From: a virus
Direction: 5' to 3' (one strand)
DNA: 43,406 bases
Virus record (IMG/VR): IMGVR_UViG_3300017706_000454
Coordinates: 1 to 43,406 of that record
Both the position numbers and the translations under genes were made by a program. The notes under the pieces are model-generated. The model worked only from the letters and a program-made list of their open reading frames with translations, was not told the origin of the DNA and ran no database searches. Below are positions 1 to 12,458 of this stretch, piece by piece; the first letter of the stretch is position 1; every line of letters starts with the position of its first letter.

Positions 1-245
1 AAGTCGCCTTCACCTTCAAAGCCTTCAACATTCTTGATATACATCTCAACTGGATACGCAGAAAGATACTGAGCCAAGTCATCTTCTTGGAAGATGTTGT
101 CTCTAGAAGCAGGGTTTCTTGGAATATAGAAACAGTCAAGACCAAACATCTTGATAGACTCAATAACCAAGTCTTCTATAAGATCCTGTTCACCATGTAC
201 TCTATCTACAGAACCATAGTTGTTGAAATACGAATTTGTAGCCAC
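1..245 (-). CDS. gp14: gp14-like neck / head-tail connector protein (partial, N-terminus)
   Basis: The start of a leftward gene whose 3' end lies beyond the left edge. Reading from a GTG at 243-245 gives MATNSYFNNYGSVDRV, followed by about 65 more residues including LIEDLVIESIKMFGLDCFYIPR. This resembles the N-terminus of T4-type gp14, the neck protein that with gp13 closes the filled head and joins it to the tail. The GTG lies 4 bases after the gp13 stop, with AGGATAA upstream as a weak ribosome-binding site. Because the start is GTG, a search limited to ATG misses the gene. The gp13-gp14 order is the standard T4 arrangement and supports the call. The reading frame is open to the window edge. 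Confidence 0.88.
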   Translation of the reverse strand, partial: MATNSYFNNYGSVDRVHGEQDLIEDLVIESIKMFGLDCFYIPRNPASRDNIFQEDDLAQYLSAYPVEMYIKNVEGFEGEGD

Positions 246-249
246 TCTA

Positions 250-1218
250 TTATCCTATCATATCGACTGCGGGCAAAGAATAACTTGAAGCCATTTCTTC
301 TTCAAGTCTTTGAATCTCTTCTCGTGCATCGCTTAAAATTTGTTCTCCATTGAACTGAACGCCACCGGGCAATGTCATGCCGTTGAACTTAGTGAGATTT
401 GAACCCCACTGATATTTGATTTTTGCTGTTGCATAGTTTTGTAAGAAACGATCTTTCCACAAATCTGTGTATGTAGTACCATCTACAACTTGATACGCTT
501 CGATTACAATATGAGTTCCCACAGTCAGCGATTCCAAATTAGTGTCTAGAAACAATCTATTCGTGTGTCTGTTGTAACGAATAGGTACTGCACCGACTAA
601 CATTTCTTCTAAAAGACTGATGTTAGCCATTGACATATAGAAGTGAGTCATGTTATAATTTACTATATCGTGAAGATTCTGAAGTATGAACTGATACTTT
701 GCGTTAAAGATTCCAGACCCCATACCAACATTAGACTCTGGTGTGAACACATTTACAGCACCTATGATGTTATCTGGAATCTCAATATAACCAAGTTCAA
801 ATATTCCCTTAGTGATGCCTGAGTTTGCTGAAGATTCAATTGTTGCTGTTGTGGTAGAGTCTTCTCCAGTTATAACTTCGCCATGCACAAAAGCTACATC
901 ATTAGTTGGCTTGCTATATGTAATCTCTGCGCCAGATGCCGCTAGAATTACTGCTTTAGCACCGCCTGCGCCCGTAATGACTTCGCCCACAGTAAAGTTT
1001 TCTGCTGTGCTTGTAGTAAGTTTCAGTGCTGAATTAGATACTTTGTGTTTGAAATAAGTCTTTTCTACGCCATCAAAGTGATAATCGTTATAATATGACA
1101 ATGCTTCATCAACTCTATCGTCTACTTGCTCGGTAGAAACATTGATATCTATTACTGGTTTACCCAGTTTTCTTAGACAAAACTCTTTGAAATCGGCTTT
1201 GGTTGTTGGCTGTGCCAT
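250..1218 (-). CDS. gp13: gp13-like neck protein (head completion) with an inserted GExITG module
   Basis: 322 aa; T4 gp13 is 309 aa. Its role by family is head completion: it binds the portal side of the filled head together with gp14. The N-terminus (KEFCLRKLGKPVIDINV, about residues 11-27, then QVDDRVDEALSYYNDYHFDG, 31-50) and the C-terminal half (FNAKYQF, 171-177; LPGGVQFNGEQIL, 283-295; ending LPAVDMIG) fit gp13 of marine T4-like phages. Between them, at about residues 64-136, is a low-complexity stretch holding two copies of a FxxGEVITG unit (75-83 and 110-118), which looks like an insertion into the conserved protein. The start is preceded by AGGAATAAAGC. Late-promoter-type boxes lie in the region upstream. 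It is the first leftward gene after the inverted plus-strand cassette. Confidence 0.9.
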   Translation of the reverse strand: MAQPTTKADFKEFCLRKLGKPVIDINVSTEQVDDRVDEALSYYNDYHFDGVEKTYFKHKVSNSALKLTTSTAENFTVGEVITGAGGAKAVILAASGAEITYSKPTNDVAFVHGEVITGEDSTTTATIESSANSGITKGIFELGYIEIPDNIIGAVNVFTPESNVGMGSGIFNAKYQFILQNLHDIVNYNMTHFYMSMANISLLEEMLVGAVPIRYNRHTNRLFLDTNLESLTVGTHIVIEAYQVVDGTTYTDLWKDRFLQNYATAKIKYQWGSNLTKFNGMTLPGGVQFNGEQILSDAREEIQRLEEEMASSYSLPAVDMIG

Positions 1219-1251: not shown

Positions 1252-1259
1252 TATTTATA
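1252..1259 (-). promoter_or_regulatory. T4-type late promoter -10 box (leftward, gp13)
   Basis: The minus strand reads TATAAATA exactly, within GTATAAATAG, about 34 bases before the gp13 ATG. TATAAATA is the T4 late promoter consensus, read by RNA polymerase with the phage late sigma factor gp55. Role inferred from the exact match and the position upstream of a late structural gene. Confidence 0.7.
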
Positions 1260-1295
1260 CGCAATAAAATTGTACTTTGCTTTAGATGCAATGAG

Positions 1296-1313
1296 TATAA
1301 ATATTTATAAATA
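1296..1313. promoter_or_regulatory. Overlapping bidirectional T4-type late promoter boxes
   Basis: On the plus strand TATAAATA occurs at 1296-1303 and again at 1306-1313. On the minus strand it occurs at 1302-1309. The first plus box and the minus box overlap to make a 14-base perfect palindrome, TATAAATATTTATA, at 1296-1309. The site lies between divergent gene sets (gp13 leftward, the 108-aa gene rightward), so it can drive both. The plus boxes end 52 to 62 bases before the ATG at 1366. Confidence 0.7.
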
Positions 1314-1365
1314 AGTGATAACAGACTTCACTTAATTTCTATTGAAAAGGATAAAGGATTAAAAA

Positions 1366-1692
1366 ATGGCAATTCCAAATATTTTCACGATTGAGACCGG
1401 TACTAGTGCGAGTACTTATAATTACCCAACTGATGCTGGCTTTGAATATCGAGGTGGTAAAAGTACTTTTGCGTTTTCGACAGCCGCGGCTGACTTCAAT
1501 AAAGTAACAGCGATAAAAATTCAGGCATCTTTTGACGATGCTAATTGGATTGATTTGACAGATTCTGCTGATAGCCCTGTTACTGTTTCGGCTAACAGCA
1601 TACTAACTGTAGATATTGGCAAATGCAAATTAAGATTTAATACAGTAGTAGGTGCTACAACAACAGGTGTAACTAACATCACGGTATCCTAA
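1366..1692 (+). CDS. Small beta-rich structural protein, unknown function
   Basis: 108 aa, first gene of the plus-strand cassette. It has no signal peptide or membrane segment. The composition (many Thr, Ser, Ala, Asn and alternating hydrophobics, e.g. KVTAIKIQASFDDANWIDL at about 45-63) suggests a small all-beta domain of the kind found in phage decoration or fibre-associated proteins. I do not recognise a named family. AAGGATAAAGG lies just upstream of the ATG as a strong ribosome-binding site, and two late-promoter boxes lie upstream. Its stop is one base before the next gene's ATG, so it is probably co-translated with the cadherin-like adhesin and may be its partner (inference). Confidence 0.75.
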   Translation: MAIPNIFTIETGTSASTYNYPTDAGFEYRGGKSTFAFSTAAADFNKVTAIKIQASFDDANWIDLTDSADSPVTVSANSILTVDIGKCKLRFNTVVGATTTGVTNITVS

Positions 1693-1693
1693 A

Positions 1694-3127
1694 ATGGGAC
1701 ACATTCTAAAAGGGCAAGTTCGCTACACCCTTGCGGTTGAAGATGTTATTCAGCAAGGCGAAATACCTACAGACTTACAAGGAATTTCTCCTCTCGCTTT
1801 CACATCAGGCGTATCAGCTTCATTTGACGAAAATATTGATGCAGACAGCACAGTGTACACCGTTGCCGCAGAAAAGCCTGATGGAACTACCACCGGCATT
1901 ACTTATGGTATAAGTGGAACTGATGCGGGTGACTTCACTATAAACGCAAATACTGGCGTAATAACAATTGATGCAAGCCCGAACTTCGAAGCCGATCCAT
2001 CGTATTCTATTATAGTAACTGCTAATCATGCAAACTTTGATGCAATAACACGAAATGTGGCTCTTGCTGTCAATAATCTTGATGATACTGCACCAACTAT
2101 TACTTCTGGTGCTACAGCGACAGCAATCGCAGAAAATTCTGGAGCGGGTCAGGTTATTTACACTGTAACTGCTGATGATTCTAGCGATGTTTCTGGTGGT
2201 GTTACATTCTCGAAGAGTGGCACAGATCAGAGTCTCATCAACATAGACTCAACAACAGGCGCAGTCACATTAATTGCTAACCCTGATTTTGAAACTAAGT
2301 CATCTTATAGCTTTAATGTAATTGCTACAGATGCGGCATCTAATAGTTCTACTCAAGCAGTGACACTAGCAATTACTGATGTTTTTGACACCGGTCTGGC
2401 GGCGACTGGTACTCTTGGTCGATATAGTCCGACCGGTGGTTTATTCTTTCATGGCTATGAGGATTCTCAGAGCCTACCGGGCACTGCTAATAGCCACAGA
2501 GGTTCTTTATCACCATTAAGTGACAGTGCTTTCTACGGCGGTGTGACAGTTAAAGAACTTGGATATGGCAGAAACCAATACAGCAGTGCGAGTGGAACAG
2601 AGTTTAAAATCGCATTTTCGGGCGATACTAGATCGCAATCCGGGTTTAAGCTAGTGTTTACAGACAAAAATAATGTCTCACGAACATTTAGAAGCACTGA
2701 CTCCAATATGTACAGTGAAAGTTATAACAGCTTTGCTGTTCAAACTACTTATAGCTGGGATGTGACTGATAGCGATGCTCAAGCTGTGAATGTATTTACG
2801 CCATTTGTTGGAATTAGTAGTATGTCTGTCGGGACTAGCTATACTGTGGTTAATGTTCCATATCCCGCACATTCTAGCGGATCGCCAGGTCAAGGTACTA
2901 ATTCATCAAGCGACAGAGGTCAGGCTCTTATTTCTATTGGCACTGCCGCATCAGGAACCGGATTTTTTGGCGGCGGAAGAGTCATTGCTAATAGTAATAT
3001 TAGTAATGCAACTAACATAACTAACGCCCAAGATATTGAATTTTCTAATGGTCTGGTTTCTGATATGAACCGTGGCGATGCCAATGGAACAGGCGACTCC
3101 TTCTCAATCACACTTGAAGAACTATAA
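1694..3127 (+). CDS. Cadherin-like repeat adhesin / tail fibre protein
   Basis: 477 aa. Two tandem cadherin-type domains are visible at about residues 33-131 and 135-232. Each shows an acidic FDEN or AENSG start, a central TG-V-I/TL strand (NTGVITI, TTGAVTL), PxFE (PNFEA, PDFET) and a final xxVTAN or VIATD strand. The linker NNLDDTAP resembles the calcium-binding DxNDxxP linker of cadherins. The C-terminal part (about 238-477) is glycine/serine-rich and unrecognised, and is the likely tip or binding domain. Cadherin-like domains usually mediate calcium-dependent surface binding, so a host-attachment role is inferred. The gene starts one base after the preceding stop with no good ribosome-binding site of its own, so translation is probably coupled. 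It is on the opposite strand to the main fibre block. Confidence 0.75.
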   Translation: MGHILKGQVRYTLAVEDVIQQGEIPTDLQGISPLAFTSGVSASFDENIDADSTVYTVAAEKPDGTTTGITYGISGTDAGDFTINANTGVITIDASPNFEADPSYSIIVTANHANFDAITRNVALAVNNLDDTAPTITSGATATAIAENSGAGQVIYTVTADDSSDVSGGVTFSKSGTDQSLINIDSTTGAVTLIANPDFETKSSYSFNVIATDAASNSSTQAVTLAITDVFDTGLAATGTLGRYSPTGGLFFHGYEDSQSLPGTANSHRGSLSPLSDSAFYGGVTVKELGYGRNQYSSASGTEFKIAFSGDTRSQSGFKLVFTDKNNVSRTFRSTDSNMYSESYNSFAVQTTYSWDVTDSDAQAVNVFTPFVGISSMSVGTSYTVVNVPYPAHSSGSPGQGTNSSSDRGQALISIGTAASGTGFFGGGRVIANSNISNATNITNAQDIEFSNGLVSDMNRGDANGTGDSFSITLEEL

Positions 3128-3138
3128 GGAACAATATA

Positions 3139-3471
3139 ATGGCATTAAATTGGAAAGTTAATTCACTAACAACTTCTACAGAAGGCTCTTTATCAAATGT
3201 CGTTTCCCATGTTGAGTGGGAATGTACATTTATAACTGAATCGGTTTGCAGAAGAAGTTACGGTAGAATAAAATTACAAACTTCTCATTTGAACGATGAG
3301 GGGCAGTCGTTTACTCAATTTGAAGATTTAAGTGAAGATACTGTTATAGACTGGGTAAAGTCTACGCTTGGAGCGCATTCCGTGACTGAAATGGAGCAAA
3401 TTCAAGAAGGTGGCGAAGAAATTATATACAGCGATTTACGAGACACTTCAACACTACCATCTGGTTGGTAG
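3139..3471 (+). CDS. DUF7936-like small phage protein
   Basis: 110 aa. It begins MALNWKVNSLTTSTEG, has an EDTVIDWVKSTLG segment at about 85-97, and ends LPSGW. This layout (MALxW start, VIxWV motif, short Trp-ending tail) matches small proteins common in marine phages and assigned, to my recollection, to DUF7936. Function is unknown; such genes often sit beside fibre genes. It has a good ribosome-binding site (AAGGAAC) 11 bases after the previous stop. Family assignment is from memory of the pattern; no catalytic motif is visible. Confidence 0.7.
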   Translation: MALNWKVNSLTTSTEGSLSNVVSHVEWECTFITESVCRRSYGRIKLQTSHLNDEGQSFTQFEDLSEDTVIDWVKSTLGAHSVTEMEQIQEGGEEIIYSDLRDTSTLPSGW

Positions 3472-3483
3472 TTACCCATCGCA

Positions 3484-3491
3484 CATAAATA
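3484..3491 (+). promoter_or_regulatory. Late-promoter-like box upstream of the 920-aa gene
   Basis: CATAAATA, one base from the T4 late consensus TATAAATA, lies in the 51-bp gap before the ATG at 3523. This is the widest gap inside the plus-strand cassette, which favours a promoter here. One mismatch in AT-rich DNA keeps confidence moderate. Confidence 0.4.
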
Positions 3492-3522
3492 GTATGATAA
3501 CACATGAACCTAAGAGAATCGT

Positions 3523-6285
3523 ATGGCGTCTAGGAAATATCTAAAATTTGGTTTAAGAGCAGACAAGAACTTAGCTGATCTAAGTGACTCGACTATCGCT
3601 GTAGATAATATTCTAGATAATCTAGCGAGTGGTAGTAATATATTCGGTGAATCGTATAACTTCTCTAGTGCTGATATTTCTCCAATAAGACAGTTATCTT
3701 CTACTGATCTTGTAGATATCATCGATCCAGATGATGACCTACCTAAAATACTTACTGACTTAGAGGCTTCTATTCCAGTCTATGATGCGTCTTCTGTTTC
3801 TGATGATCCATTGACTGGTATACAACCAGTACAACCACAAGTTACTCTGCAAGACTACATAAACAGATTTAAAGTTGTATTAGGTGATCCACCATTTATT
3901 AATGGTGGCTCAGGTCCTTTTGCTGAATACGTTCATCCATTAAGAATAACAAACATGACGGGCGATATCAGTAACTTTACTGTCAGCTTAACTCCATCTA
4001 CAAACGCAATAAATGACTTAGTTGTTGGTAATCGATATAAGATTCTAAATAAAGGCAATATTACAAACGCCCAATGGGATTCAATAGCTGTCGTTAACGC
4101 AGGTTCATACAGTAACGGAGATATATTTATATGTGATCAGACCGTTGCGACAGTTATAGGCGCCAACACAACTGCCGAAGTCAGAGACATATCGACTCCT
4201 AGTGGTAATTATGCGCTATCAAGTAGTGCAGTTCCAACTCAAAATTTACCATCAAATGTTCTATTTACGAAAGTTACTGGAACATTACCAAACATTATTC
4301 AAACATCAGACGATTGGGATGTTGGTAGATTTCAGTGGGATAGTGCCTTACATAATTCATTCAGCGTTAATGACGGTCTTGTTCAATTTGTTGGATATCA
4401 GATAGATAACTACTTTCCACCAATCCAAACAAATGGATTATTCTTGATCGAAGAAGATACAGTTGATACTGCAAACGATGACACTAACTGGAGATTTATT
4501 AGAGGAACAAATACATCAAGAGTTATACCTAACTACAATATTACATGGCTCACAAACAGTGATGGATACACAGAAATAACATTTAGCAACAGAGAAGACT
4601 GGAGAAAAGTCGGAGTAAATATGACTGTTTCTCTCAATGGAACAGATGCCGGACAAGTCACTGAAATAAAGACAGATGGTGGAGTATATCGTGTATGCTT
4701 GTCAGTAGACTTTGGTACAACAGAAAGTAGCGGAACAACAGTTGCTGAGTTTAGTTTTGAAATTGGTGGAGATACTTTAATAGCGTATTCACAGCTTGAC
4801 TTCACGCAACCACCCGGAGACTTCAGAAGAAAAGTCAGATACACTTGTTGGTGGCCTACTGGAACTGGAGAAGGAGCAAAGATATTTGGTAAACCTGAAG
4901 GTAGTTCATATGACTTCAGTAGCCTAAATTTTTATAAAGAGCAACTAGACAGCACGTTTGTAAGTCAAAGATACAGCTATCCGTACTTTAGAGACAATAG
5001 AGCAAACATACTAAAGCAAGATGGTAACACAGAAGTTCGTATAGACAATAAATTTTTAAATGTATATCAAAAACCAGGTGTCACAAAAGATATTCTACAA
5101 AATCTTAGTGTGTTTCCAGACACGGTTGCTAGTTCATATAACACAATAACTGCAAAAACTGTTTCTGCTAAAACTGATGGAAGTATAAACGGAACTGACG
5201 CTTTTACTACTGCTGAAGTAGGAGACTTTATTGTTTCGTCTAGACATGATGGATCAAATCAACTTCACTATGTATACCAAATAGAACAAAAAGTTAGTAA
5301 CAGCAAAGTATATGTCGACCCCACATACTTAAATATAACTGGTATTTCAGAAAACTCTGGTCATAATATAGTTTTAGTTAAGAACAACGGGCTAATTGGT
5401 ATATACAAGTCAGTCGATACTAGTGGAACAAATACTTTAACTATTGAAAGAACGCAAGAAGGTATAAAGGCTAAGTATCCATTTGAAGTTGAAGAAGACT
5501 GTATTATCTATAAAGTTGACGATGGTCCTTTCGGTCCTAGTAATACTGACAGCACACACTCAACACATAGATATGGCTTCAGAGTAAGAAGTACCACTCA
5601 CAATAATAACAGAGCGGCAGTTACCGCCGATCTGACTGTAGACGCAAATCCAACAAATTCTAGTGCGACAGTATCTACGAATGACGGATTTGTTGTAGTT
5701 TACTCGTCAAAAGGATTGTTAGATAGATCAACCACTGAAGAATGTACTGGTGTTTTTGGTAGAGAAGTTACAGCAAATGCAAACTCAGGTCAGAATGAAA
5801 TTGTAGTTAATGACCCTAGTGGAATATCAGTAGGCGATCTTGTTTATTTTGATGGTACAATTCCATACGACAACACTTCGCTTGCGACAATGACGAGAGT
5901 TAAAGCAATCAGTGGAAACACGCTTCAACTAGGAAAGGGATCTCCTGCACCAAATACTAATGTTAACTTGTCTTCTTTACTGGCTGTTGGCTCAACTGTA
6001 GTTTTTGTGCCATCTAATGCTGGGCCGAATAGTGATGGTTGGGGATTGAACAACAAAGAATATTGTATTATTCCTCTAAACACAGCACCGCCTTGGGAAG
6101 GGACTGACTTAGGTCTGGCTAGCCCTGCTGTAAGCGCAACAGAAAACTTTGGTGTTATGTCAAAAGAGTTTAGATTTGTTAACTTATCTTTTGAATTACC
6201 TACTGCAAATATTACAAAATACACAGAAAACAATAACGCTAAGAAAAAGTATCTGAATGTTAAGTTTGTTCCACCTGTAAGTTAA
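3523..6285 (+). CDS. Large virion structural / fibre-like protein (920 aa)
   Basis: 920 aa. The N-terminus contains KNLADLSDSTIAVDNIL (about 15-31), like the NLxDLxD...A..NL anchor motif at the start of many phage fibre and baseplate proteins. A copy of the window's recurrent Y-x-I/W module (RYKILNKG...QWDSIAVV...GDIFIC) lies at about 171-204. The middle is a long beta-rich region with many Gly, Asn, Thr and Trp, without a recognised enzyme motif. The end (FRFVNLSFELP...YLNVKFVPPVS) is compact. No signal peptide or membrane helix is visible. Likely a baseplate-attached fibre or tail structural protein (inference). Its stop codon overlaps that of the convergent 803-aa gene by 4 bases. Confidence 0.75.
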   Translation: MASRKYLKFGLRADKNLADLSDSTIAVDNILDNLASGSNIFGESYNFSSADISPIRQLSSTDLVDIIDPDDDLPKILTDLEASIPVYDASSVSDDPLTGIQPVQPQVTLQDYINRFKVVLGDPPFINGGSGPFAEYVHPLRITNMTGDISNFTVSLTPSTNAINDLVVGNRYKILNKGNITNAQWDSIAVVNAGSYSNGDIFICDQTVATVIGANTTAEVRDISTPSGNYALSSSAVPTQNLPSNVLFTKVTGTLPNIIQTSDDWDVGRFQWDSALHNSFSVNDGLVQFVGYQIDNYFPPIQTNGLFLIEEDTVDTANDDTNWRFIRGTNTSRVIPNYNITWLTNSDGYTEITFSNREDWRKVGVNMTVSLNGTDAGQVTEIKTDGGVYRVCLSVDFGTTESSGTTVAEFSFEIGGDTLIAYSQLDFTQPPGDFRRKVRYTCWWPTGTGEGAKIFGKPEGSSYDFSSLNFYKEQLDSTFVSQRYSYPYFRDNRANILKQDGNTEVRIDNKFLNVYQKPGVTKDILQNLSVFPDTVASSYNTITAKTVSAKTDGSINGTDAFTTAEVGDFIVSSRHDGSNQLHYVYQIEQKVSNSKVYVDPTYLNITGISENSGHNIVLVKNNGLIGIYKSVDTSGTNTLTIERTQEGIKAKYPFEVEEDCIIYKVDDGPFGPSNTDSTHSTHRYGFRVRSTTHNNNRAAVTADLTVDANPTNSSATVSTNDGFVVVYSSKGLLDRSTTEECTGVFGREVTANANSGQNEIVVNDPSGISVGDLVYFDGTIPYDNTSLATMTRVKAISGNTLQLGKGSPAPNTNVNLSSLLAVGSTVVFVPSNAGPNSDGWGLNNKEYCIIPLNTAPPWEGTDLGLASPAVSATENFGVMSKEFRFVNLSFELPTANITKYTENNNAKKKYLNVKFVPPVS
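4021..4137 (+). repeat. Y-x-I/W protein module copy in the 920-aa protein
   Basis: Encodes about residues 167-205: VVGNRYKILNKG, then a W four residues after ITNA, then GDIFIC. It fits the Y-x-I...G...W...G...F pattern found in many other proteins of this window. Confidence 0.6.
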
Positions 6286-11700: not shown

Positions 11701-12458
11701 GTGCTAGGGGTATAGACAGTTGGGTTTCCGACTTCTTCACCAGAATTTACTGACTGCCTCACAAAGGTGAACGGAACTCTTGATCCATTTGCTAATGTTA
11801 AAGGCGGAGTGGTTGCATAAAGAGTTATACTAGGTTGCAACCTGTTTATTGTAATAGTAAATGGAATACCCCTCATGGCAGGAAACTCTACGGGTTCACC
11901 ATTAATACTAAGCCTTACCTTATTTGTTGCTACTTCAGATGTAAATCTTTTTGCTTGTGGTGCAGTAGTTAATGATAACTCTGTAAGCGCAAGATATTCT
12001 CCTTTATTGAGAACATCAGAATTATATGTTATCAATTGATCTGGATTATCTACAGGACCGAATGGCGACCAAGAAGAAACTCTAGATGTAGAAATGTCTG
12101 CGCCTTTATTAACCCAATTATTACTACTATCATTAAAATCAACATAGTTATACTTAATAGTACCTGCTATCAACTTGTTGTTAATATCGTAGTTATATAC
12201 TTGATCAGTATCAACTCTTTTAATTTCGTCTGTTTTCAGTTTTGCTGTAATTGCGGCACTACCTAATTGACCTAATATTCCTTTTTGGTCATCCACAAGA
12301 CCAGACAAACTGTGAAGTTCATCACGAGTTATCACTTGATTTAGGTTTCTTATTAAGTCTAAATTATCTGCTCTTAATCCAAGATTAGACAATGCGACAT
12401 CGGGATTACCAATGTCGATCATGTTTTTAGCTACGTTAAGACCTCTAAAGATTGCCAT
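8706..12458 (-). CDS. Leucine-rich-repeat virion structural / fibre protein (1250 aa)
   Basis: 1250 aa. The N-terminus (KNMIDIGNPDVALSNLGL, about 11-28) matches the fibre/baseplate anchor motif. Leucine-rich repeats are visible at about 297-403 (LDNLKQLFLDGNQLEFIP, LETLSVKKNP, LKYLNIEDS, LQTLIIGSS) and at 1087-1183 (YFRMYNNNLYGNFP, LEELKIESNRFFGPTP, LTSIDLRNNNLP), with degenerate ones between (RYLYFYNNKY near 840). An HGL-like unit lies at about 443-504 and two Y-x-I/W modules at about 948-1027. LRR surfaces bind proteins or glycans, so receptor binding is inferred. The ATG follows directly on the upstream stop (TAAATG), with AAGGAAC as ribosome-binding site inside the preceding gene. Confidence 0.78.
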   Translation of the reverse strand: MAIFRGLNVAKNMIDIGNPDVALSNLGLRADNLDLIRNLNQVITRDELHSLSGLVDDQKGILGQLGSAAITAKLKTDEIKRVDTDQVYNYDINNKLIAGTIKYNYVDFNDSSNNWVNKGADISTSRVSSWSPFGPVDNPDQLITYNSDVLNKGEYLALTELSLTTAPQAKRFTSEVATNKVRLSINGEPVEFPAMRGIPFTITINRLQPSITLYATTPPLTLANGSRVPFTFVRQSVNSGEEVGNPTVYTPSTSGYTRFYPSVTDTVAEEQDLKIFYNPANIDRIYANYHGIPGWPEVTLDNLKQLFLDGNQLEFIPNLDKFAPKLETLSVKKNPIFNSVNHTNENNLNSDGSAFDGSIQANIDRLPRTLKYLNIEDSLKGTLTQPLDFSHLPNLQTLIIGSSSNQATRAPQLIVPSVIANFTSPTLRLQFNPQDSSQFNSGTGAITIPNHQLNNGNQVQYDVRVADDDSNSDTTEGTVGTVIGGLTSESKYEVHSVSGDTFKLKAIGGSNISYSSTGSGTFHSLVLWDPTANNNAGDIYYNPNVGLVKWDIGYAEEMKFMDNAVLDSKRLTHYTPNRTTGLISNSLYRFVDDTNSNTLAKSNADREFYLATDILDQYWPYYTGKINIMDFSKWQDTLKTCVLYGQVPDPTYSLAQKSITSAKLNPLNVITRLWMAYNGSTSSPVYGDVSTAWANKPQLTEMYYYSNYGTTMRISNNFYAGSPKCRQFRIGQSGSVYPTVDRVLNYGNFALDHDVLGVSGAPGGDRTGQFLDPVRNVLNYFQLTNVRYGAAVKLNDTSYGGGDLRDIGISDCNRMFYFSITGTHVFGKFPNVTGLASMRYLYFYNNKYTVSTLSMKEGEAYAMVNAKFNDTDSQSRYTNENTSYFYLTDAEMEDMGWKPGTAPAGTGRSDSDIVPWGATTLHGSTPSTNDYFIYTPLTANSVVETQRYVILDPTGTTQAQWETLGLPSETAAAKGVVFTGSSSANRVNLKSAQNGVNYKIIRRGSTQSYFTTLGASSTNLGTTFTANNNASSGMLSSGGYLEKTSPTNFGTGKVVRYNARSSAFGATVYEIETETGNEINGINSCQYFRMYNNNLYGNFPTIKQNLLGGQTVKKLEELKIESNRFFGPTPDLTYIEDTLKLLAQNNDFDSHIPNTLDTATRLTSIDLRNNNLPAAAALSIINDLYQNYQDNPRTGVVVKLEGQTPGSGVNRCSLAALEQDPNAQSEGSPLSKYNVLKDVWTITIDTTITQ
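9378..9617 (-). repeat. Two Y-x-I/W modules in the LRR protein
   Basis: Encodes RYVILDPTGTTQAQWETLG...GVVFTGSS and NYKIIRRGSTQSYFTTLGAS...GTTFTANN (about residues 947-1028), inserted between LRR segments. In the second unit the W position is F. Confidence 0.55.

Follow-up and report, generated by a model that had tools for sequence, protein, structure and literature searches.

The 12-bp palindrome TATTTATAAATA at positions 1302-1313 is best read, with a probability that we put at about 0.7, as a bidirectional T4-type late promoter in which two outward-facing late boxes share one TATA. This reading draws on what was directly observed, namely both boxes and their geometry, their conservation at divergent junctions, the validity of the T4 box in the lineage, and gp55 genes in three relatives. 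The junction is a further instance of an arrangement already present in T4, here at a different junction of an uncultured marine lineage.

Late boxes and palindromes of the gp13-cassette junction

The window, i.e., the whole stretch of DNA analyzed, is a 43,406-base record of an uncultured marine T4-like virus with T4-like virion genes inside it. Its left end holds gp14 and gp13, followed across a gap of 147 bases by a rightward cassette of four genes (1366-6285); the leftward genes of the window include baseplate proteins, up to gp6 and gp25. The features of the junction and its neighbors are as follows.

3..245, minus strand, gp14-like neck protein, truncated at the edge of the window (PF11649, E 9.4e-14; phrog_460)
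250..1218, minus strand, gp13-like neck protein, head-tail adaptor Ad2 (phrog_211, E 3.7e-41)
1252..1259, minus strand, gp13's own late box, 33 nt upstream of the gp13 ATG
1291..1326, unstranded, invariant block of 36 nt, wider than the boxes (alignment of 11 window-type junctions)
1296..1303, plus strand, second rightward box, which faces the leftward one and overlaps it, present in window-type relatives
1296..1309, both strands, 14-bp palindrome TATAAATATTTATA, a convergent box pair found at a single place in the record
1302..1309, minus strand, leftward late box toward gp13, predicted start about 1296 (T4 rule)
1302..1313, both strands, 12-bp palindrome, the conserved core
1306..1313, plus strand, late box reading rightward into the cassette, predicted start about 1319, box end 52 nt from the ATG at 1366
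1366..1692, plus strand, first cassette gene A108, 108 aa (homologues in 11 viral loci)
1694..3127, plus strand, second cassette gene, 477 aa, cadherin domain (PF00028, E 4.4e-20)
3139..3471, plus strand, third cassette gene, 110 aa, DUF7936 (PF25590, E 1.1e-15)
3484..3491, plus strand, one-way late box CATAAATA of D920, 31 nt from box end to ATG
3523..6285, plus strand, fourth cassette gene D920, 920 aa (N-terminal family alignment A1; 43 loci)

A108 gave no family match in the Pfam and PHROG searches, and the D920 protein had zero matches in Pfam, PHROGs and the isolate phage collection. The D gene is the one directly at the palindrome in most of the relatives found, and members of its family begin with a common N-terminal motif like KYLKFGLRADKNLADL (window 3523-3600; A1), after which variable parts follow.

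The sequence-only reading had described four exact late boxes within 62 nt and a perfect palindrome giving a box on each strand, and both observations were confirmed: exact copies of TATAAATA lie at 1252-1259 (minus), 1296-1303 (plus), 1302-1309 (minus) and 1306-1313 (plus), and 1296-1309 is a perfect 14-bp palindrome. Absent from that reading was a second perfect palindrome, the 12-mer, which overlaps the 14-mer so that the 18-mer TATAAATATTTATAAATA holds both. The four clustered boxes are 33, 52, 62 and 83 nt from gene starts, and none of the remaining four exact boxes in the window comes within 100 nt of a gene start on its own strand. The chance count that the sequence-only reading had proposed gave 8 boxes in the window against 4.5 expected, with 12 of 100 shuffles reaching 8. 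The total number is unremarkable; the clustering of four boxes is not chance, as four boxes in 62 nt occurred in none of 300 dinucleotide shuffles of the window, and when the 147-nt intergenic region was shuffled 5000 times the maximum was three boxes, seen in 2 of the 5000. The 12-mer occurred in 0 of 60 shuffles of the window.

The two palindromes differ in what they offer a polymerase. The 14-mer had been put forward as the element of a palindromic bidirectional promoter, and comparison of the 12-mer among relatives upheld the two-strand late promoter but not this element, whose boxes face each other. Of the two palindromes, relatives that are not of the window type retain only the 12-mer at the junction, and on this ground we rejected the 14-mer as the functional unit. 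The 14-mer was found in 9 of the 80 loci of a gp13 scan (8 window-type loci and L069) and in 3 of the 43 loci of a D-gene scan, window-type only.

The T4 late consensus in the lineage

A check of the late consensus, also proposed earlier, showed that the T4 code holds in the lineage. Across nine pooled records with 484 called genes, TATAAATA was the top 8-mer upstream of genes, with 59 copies seen 15-60 nt upstream against 1.7 expected, counts which are not independent since the nine records are related. The same 8-mer ranked first in the T4 control (19 seen, 0.9 expected). For the window alone, exact TATAAATA was not the top 8-mer, and AATAAATA, ATAAATAG and related ATAAATA 8-mers led; NATAAATA boxes were found 25-81 nt before gp25, gp6 and other window genes, and boxes of the forms CATAAATA, AATAAATA and GATAAATA also lie within 100 nt of gene starts. 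The sigma factor gene gp55 was identified in 3 of 29 records of the lineage, which may be fragments (G010 at 1.1e-60; G023 and G024 at about 2.5e-62), and gp45 in two of these possibly fragmentary 29 (G023, G024) and in the T4 control. Neither gp55 nor gp45 was found in the 43-kb window. Taken on these sequence counts, the validity of the T4 late consensus in this lineage is supported.

Conservation of the 12-mer with a divergent neighbor

Evidence bearing on both box halves came from a scan in which the palindrome played no part. A search with the N-terminal family of D920 (alignment A1) gave 43 loci, and the exact 12-mer stood just before D in 37 of them. For 35 of these the distance to the ATG is 33-45 nt; the other 2 have no settled start, and there the 12-mer lies 31 nt ahead of the matched region. 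At all 37 loci, each of which was checked directly, a small homologous gene (MAIK/MAVK...) lies on the other strand with its start 23-28 nt away; 34 of these genes are closed ORFs of 110-137 aa, and the other 3 run off the contig end. The 37 junctions represent 24 distinct 52-nt contexts, and since the lineage shares descent they do not amount to 37 independent events. In the other 6 of the 43 loci D comes after a same-strand cassette gene, and the 12-mer is absent at that place; the same six contigs carry the 12-mer at the head of the cassette instead.

The four bases that only the reverse box needs, TATT, are invariant at the divergent D junctions (37/37). In 5 of the 6 same-strand loci, the box before D is one-way, of the form TATAAATA or CATAAATA, and the tetramer ahead of it is CAAC, CGTA or TTGC, not TATT; in 5 of 6 window-type relatives such a box has the same spacing to D as the CATAAATA box of the window. 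TATT likewise precedes none of 31 distinct one-way gp13 boxes, in an analysis that took in 59 of 74 gp13 loci. Both halves are thus exact at 37 of 37 divergent junctions, the counter-case being the one-way gp18 junctions of a sister group described below.

The surroundings of the site are diverse. Among 40 loci, 28 distinct 72-nt contexts in 12 clusters were obtained, with a mean pairwise flank identity of 0.42; as these contexts were collected by the 12-mer itself, they show diversity of the flanks and not invariance of the 12-mer, for which the 37 of 37 is the unselected result. Each of 29 related contigs (21 + 8), most of them chosen after a 12-mer had appeared in a locus, holds exactly one 12-mer, and shuffling of eight contigs gave 0-0.07 expected per contig. 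The 12-mer is also found in G022, an unrelated contig that was left out of the 29. Six of the first 21 contigs had shown no copy near gp13 (G005, G009, G011, G013, G018, G021), and all six have the 12-mer at the same D junction.

Palindromes at one-way junctions

In a sister group, the 12-mer is found upstream of gp18 in one-way junctions with no divergent gene. A palindromic late box was seen upstream of gp18 in L259, L284, L317, L334 and about 20 further loci. T4 homology, applied to four of the one-way loci, placed the site between gp17 and gp18, with a further ORF in between in L334. Among 50 distinct gp18 upstream regions the 12-mer was present in 25, every one of which came from loci fetched by palindrome patterns, and it was present in 0 of 22 gp18 upstream regions from gp13- or D-based fetches. 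These one-way sites mean that the palindrome by itself is no proof of two-way use, and that no divergent gene is needed for a palindromic late box to arise or persist. All-A/T tetramers, TATT among them, precede the box in 50 of the 50 distinct gp18 upstream regions, so TATT could partly reflect an upstream preference for A/T.

The pattern scan for palindromes matched 101 stretches, from which 80 loci were classified. As a strict mark of divergence the 12-mer was rejected, its 28 matches in related loci being divided into 15 one-way junctions, 8 divergent junctions, 4 edges and 1 site inside an ORF. Among the matches listed from an 18-mer scan, 65 of 116 in unrelated viruses were divergent, suggesting that A/T palindromes favor divergent gaps generally. 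The palindrome is also not the sole solution, since the near genome-length contig G024 has another divergent junction with two separate outward boxes and no 12-mer.

The gp13 side of the junction

The scan with gp13 found the 12-mer in 27 of 80 loci, once each, and all 27 have an opposite-strand gene toward the cassette; for 11 of them this right-hand gene was placed from the sequence, by a conserved ATG 26-28 nt away. The palindrome had earlier been thought to couple expression of the neck genes to that of the cassette. This is unsupported, because gp13 has its own dedicated box at 1252 and the neck genes hence their own promoter. The same holds for relatives: of 74 loci, 62 have a NATAAATA box no more than 60 nt from the gp13 start (57 of them exact), the 74 being the 80 gp13 loci minus six in which the match does not begin at residue 1 (L036, L039, L043, L053, L060, L075). 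The gp13 box is also present in relatives with a palindrome that lies at a distance of hundreds or thousands of bases. Of the 12 loci that lack it, five (L012, L024, L028, L030, L054) are in contigs with a palindrome elsewhere.

In the relatives L006 and L010 a gene of 121-124 aa lies left of the palindrome with its start 26-27 nt from it; the 121-aa gene of L006, which starts at 27 nt and lies between the palindrome and gp13, matches phrog_1084. The window junction does not have that small gene, and no gene stands between the leftward arm and the gp13 box. As gp13 also has its box at 1252, the leftward arm in the window probably gives gp13 a redundant additional start.

It is also conceivable, though we consider it unlikely, that the rightward box alone is used in the window, and that the leftward arm is a relic of an ancestral layout with a small virion gene or an A/T-rich aid to opening. 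A small gene does lie left of the palindrome in L006, L010 and at the 37 D-scan loci, where the window has the gp13 box alone, gp13 being already provided for; and the all-A/T tetramers before the gp18 boxes would fit a relic or an opening aid as well. The pattern of retention argues otherwise, in that the leftward box is kept in all 10 A108-scan loci adjoining gp13 despite third-base divergence in gp13, and TATT is kept at every one of the 37 D junctions. Third bases of the shared gp13 codons differ from the window by about 17-24% in the nearer relatives and by about a third in the farther ones, in an ungapped comparison whose register may be off.

The invariant block of window-type junctions

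Window-type junctions are conserved beyond the palindromes. The block TGTTATCACTTATTTATAAATA was found in 10 viral contigs, in scans from which the window's own record may be omitted, and its alignment comprises 11 junctions, the window's and those of 10 loci, which were positioned by means of a 29-mer that lies within the block. The block at 1291-1326, wider than late boxes require, contains AGTGATAACAGAC. The scan with A108 gave 11 loci, 10 of which have the 14-mer and the 12-mer at the gene head. The eleventh, L432 (2371-2450), has a crossed late-box pair at a divergent start and no palindrome, and its divergent neighbor had no match among the window proteins or 13 T4 proteins. A108 is 46-54% identical to its homologues in L002, L004 and L005, whereas gp13 is 95-97% identical there, as if the cassette had been swapped next to a constant promoter.

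Palindromes are often bound by dimeric proteins, and the 36-nt width of the invariant block exceeds the boxes. Both points would suit an operator bound by DsbA or another A/T-binding phage protein, with the overlap of the late boxes being regulatory and not a matter of bidirectional initiation; in T4, according to part of the text of PMC2988020, A/T-rich DsbA sites overlap two late promoters. We regard such an operator as very improbable, given that the core is exactly a pair of late boxes, which in fibre-type relatives lie at promoter distance from both genes, and that the flanks are diverse across the lineage.

Two causes for the extra width of the block were tried, and both are weak candidates. 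A hairpin in the rightward leader (about 1312-1334) had a z-score of -1.45, its stability being equaled or exceeded in 17 of 200 shuffles, and by eye its stem is not kept in L004. The other is a host promoter of the sigma-70 type, for which a single leftward-reading site with 9 of 12 matches (1321-1294) lies inside the invariant stretch. The -35/-10 hexamers are at chance level, with 1 site found against 1.2 expected in shuffles, and the fibre-type relatives have the 12-mer but not the 36-nt block; that the region is a sigma-70 type promoter instead of a late promoter is therefore, in our judgment, extremely improbable.

Counterparts in T4 and other systems

T4 itself has one identical 12-mer, at 116450-116461 between the divergent late genes 26 (minus) and 51 (plus), and RB69 has one in the same 26/51 place (118641-118652). 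Scarlato and colleagues (Virology, 1989) reportedly described late promoters of T4 that overlap and from which the base plate cluster is transcribed divergently. The junction in T4 and RB69 joins baseplate hub genes, while here neck and virion genes stand against an inverted cassette, and the T4 26/51 junction is without a third box, unlike the window. The 12-mer was absent from 12 of 14 T4-like isolates tested, including S-PM2 and P-TIM40. An excerpt of PMC2984593 gives the cyanomyovirus late promoter as NATAAATA, tolerant at position 1; the window shares this box, and it has the 12-mer that S-PM2 and P-TIM40 do not. Because the same 12-mer recurs in many relatives and in T4, we regard the junction as a well-supported case of a known type of switch and not as a new one.

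A second T4 junction resembles the convergent pair. Between genes 4 and 53 (77338-77384), crossed late boxes that face each other serve divergent late genes, and the 1296 plus and 1302 minus boxes of the window have the same facing order; the T4 boxes are separate (start offsets 15-30 nt) and not overlapping, unlike those of the window. A crossed facing pair was also seen beside a gp4 homologue in three contigs of the lineage (L219, about 5310-5370; L226, about 6127-6191; L242, about 11861-11926), where the partner gene opposite gene 4 differs between these contigs and T4, in which it is gene 53. None of the divergent junctions listed for G024 has a crossed pair.

The arrangement also has a likeness in bacteria. 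As excerpted from Warman et al. (PMC12825309), bidirectional promoters of E. coli share a -10 element and a second polymerase is sterically excluded, spacings of 10, 18 and 23 bp between the two starts are frequent, and competition matters when one direction is strongly activated. The window would be like these promoters, as far as the excerpt describes them, in having a shared element on both strands and a predicted start spacing of about 23 bp. The E. coli promoters use sigma-70, whereas here the box is of the gp55 type and the predicted activator is a polar sliding clamp.

Proposed mechanism and implications

In the mechanism that we propose, a gp55-type sigma factor would read the 8-bp box on each strand, with the late RNA polymerase aided by gp33 and the gp45 sliding clamp. 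The holoenzyme would bind the common box in one of two orientations, leading to the cassette or to the opposite operon, and a single polymerase would occupy the site at once, so that each late initiation would go left or right. We infer that the site fires in both directions. The T4 late box is placed at about -13 to -6 in a passage of PMC2988020, and this rule, by geometry only, predicts starts at about 1319 (rightward) and about 1296 (leftward), about 23 bp apart. Mutual exclusion of polymerases at the 12-mer is physically reasonable, since the boxes overlap, and would parallel the E. coli case.

How a direction might be chosen is a more speculative matter. According to an excerpt of PMC7892883, the clamp of T4 surrounds the DNA on the upstream side of the polymerase, and the available text of PMC2988020 describes the gp45 clamp as two-faced, its orientation on DNA being set by the strand that bears the 3' end at loading. 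On these excerpts, an upstream clamp of defined orientation suggests that clamp orientation could set direction. A clamp-borne polymerase might recognize the box in no orientation but the one that fits its clamp. The palindrome would then be usable by either clamp orientation, with the cassette or the opposite operon fired as that orientation dictates, and replication geometry would balance two opposed virion operons, an idea that we hold to be a long shot.

For the lineage, the D family provides a natural comparison, in which the same gene family has a palindromic box at divergent junctions and a one-way box otherwise, which makes the function of both box halves testable. The 12-mer is also a simple site for asking how polymerases attached to a polar sliding clamp choose direction, and if direction were indeed chosen by the clamp, one 12-bp site would balance two opposed virion operons.
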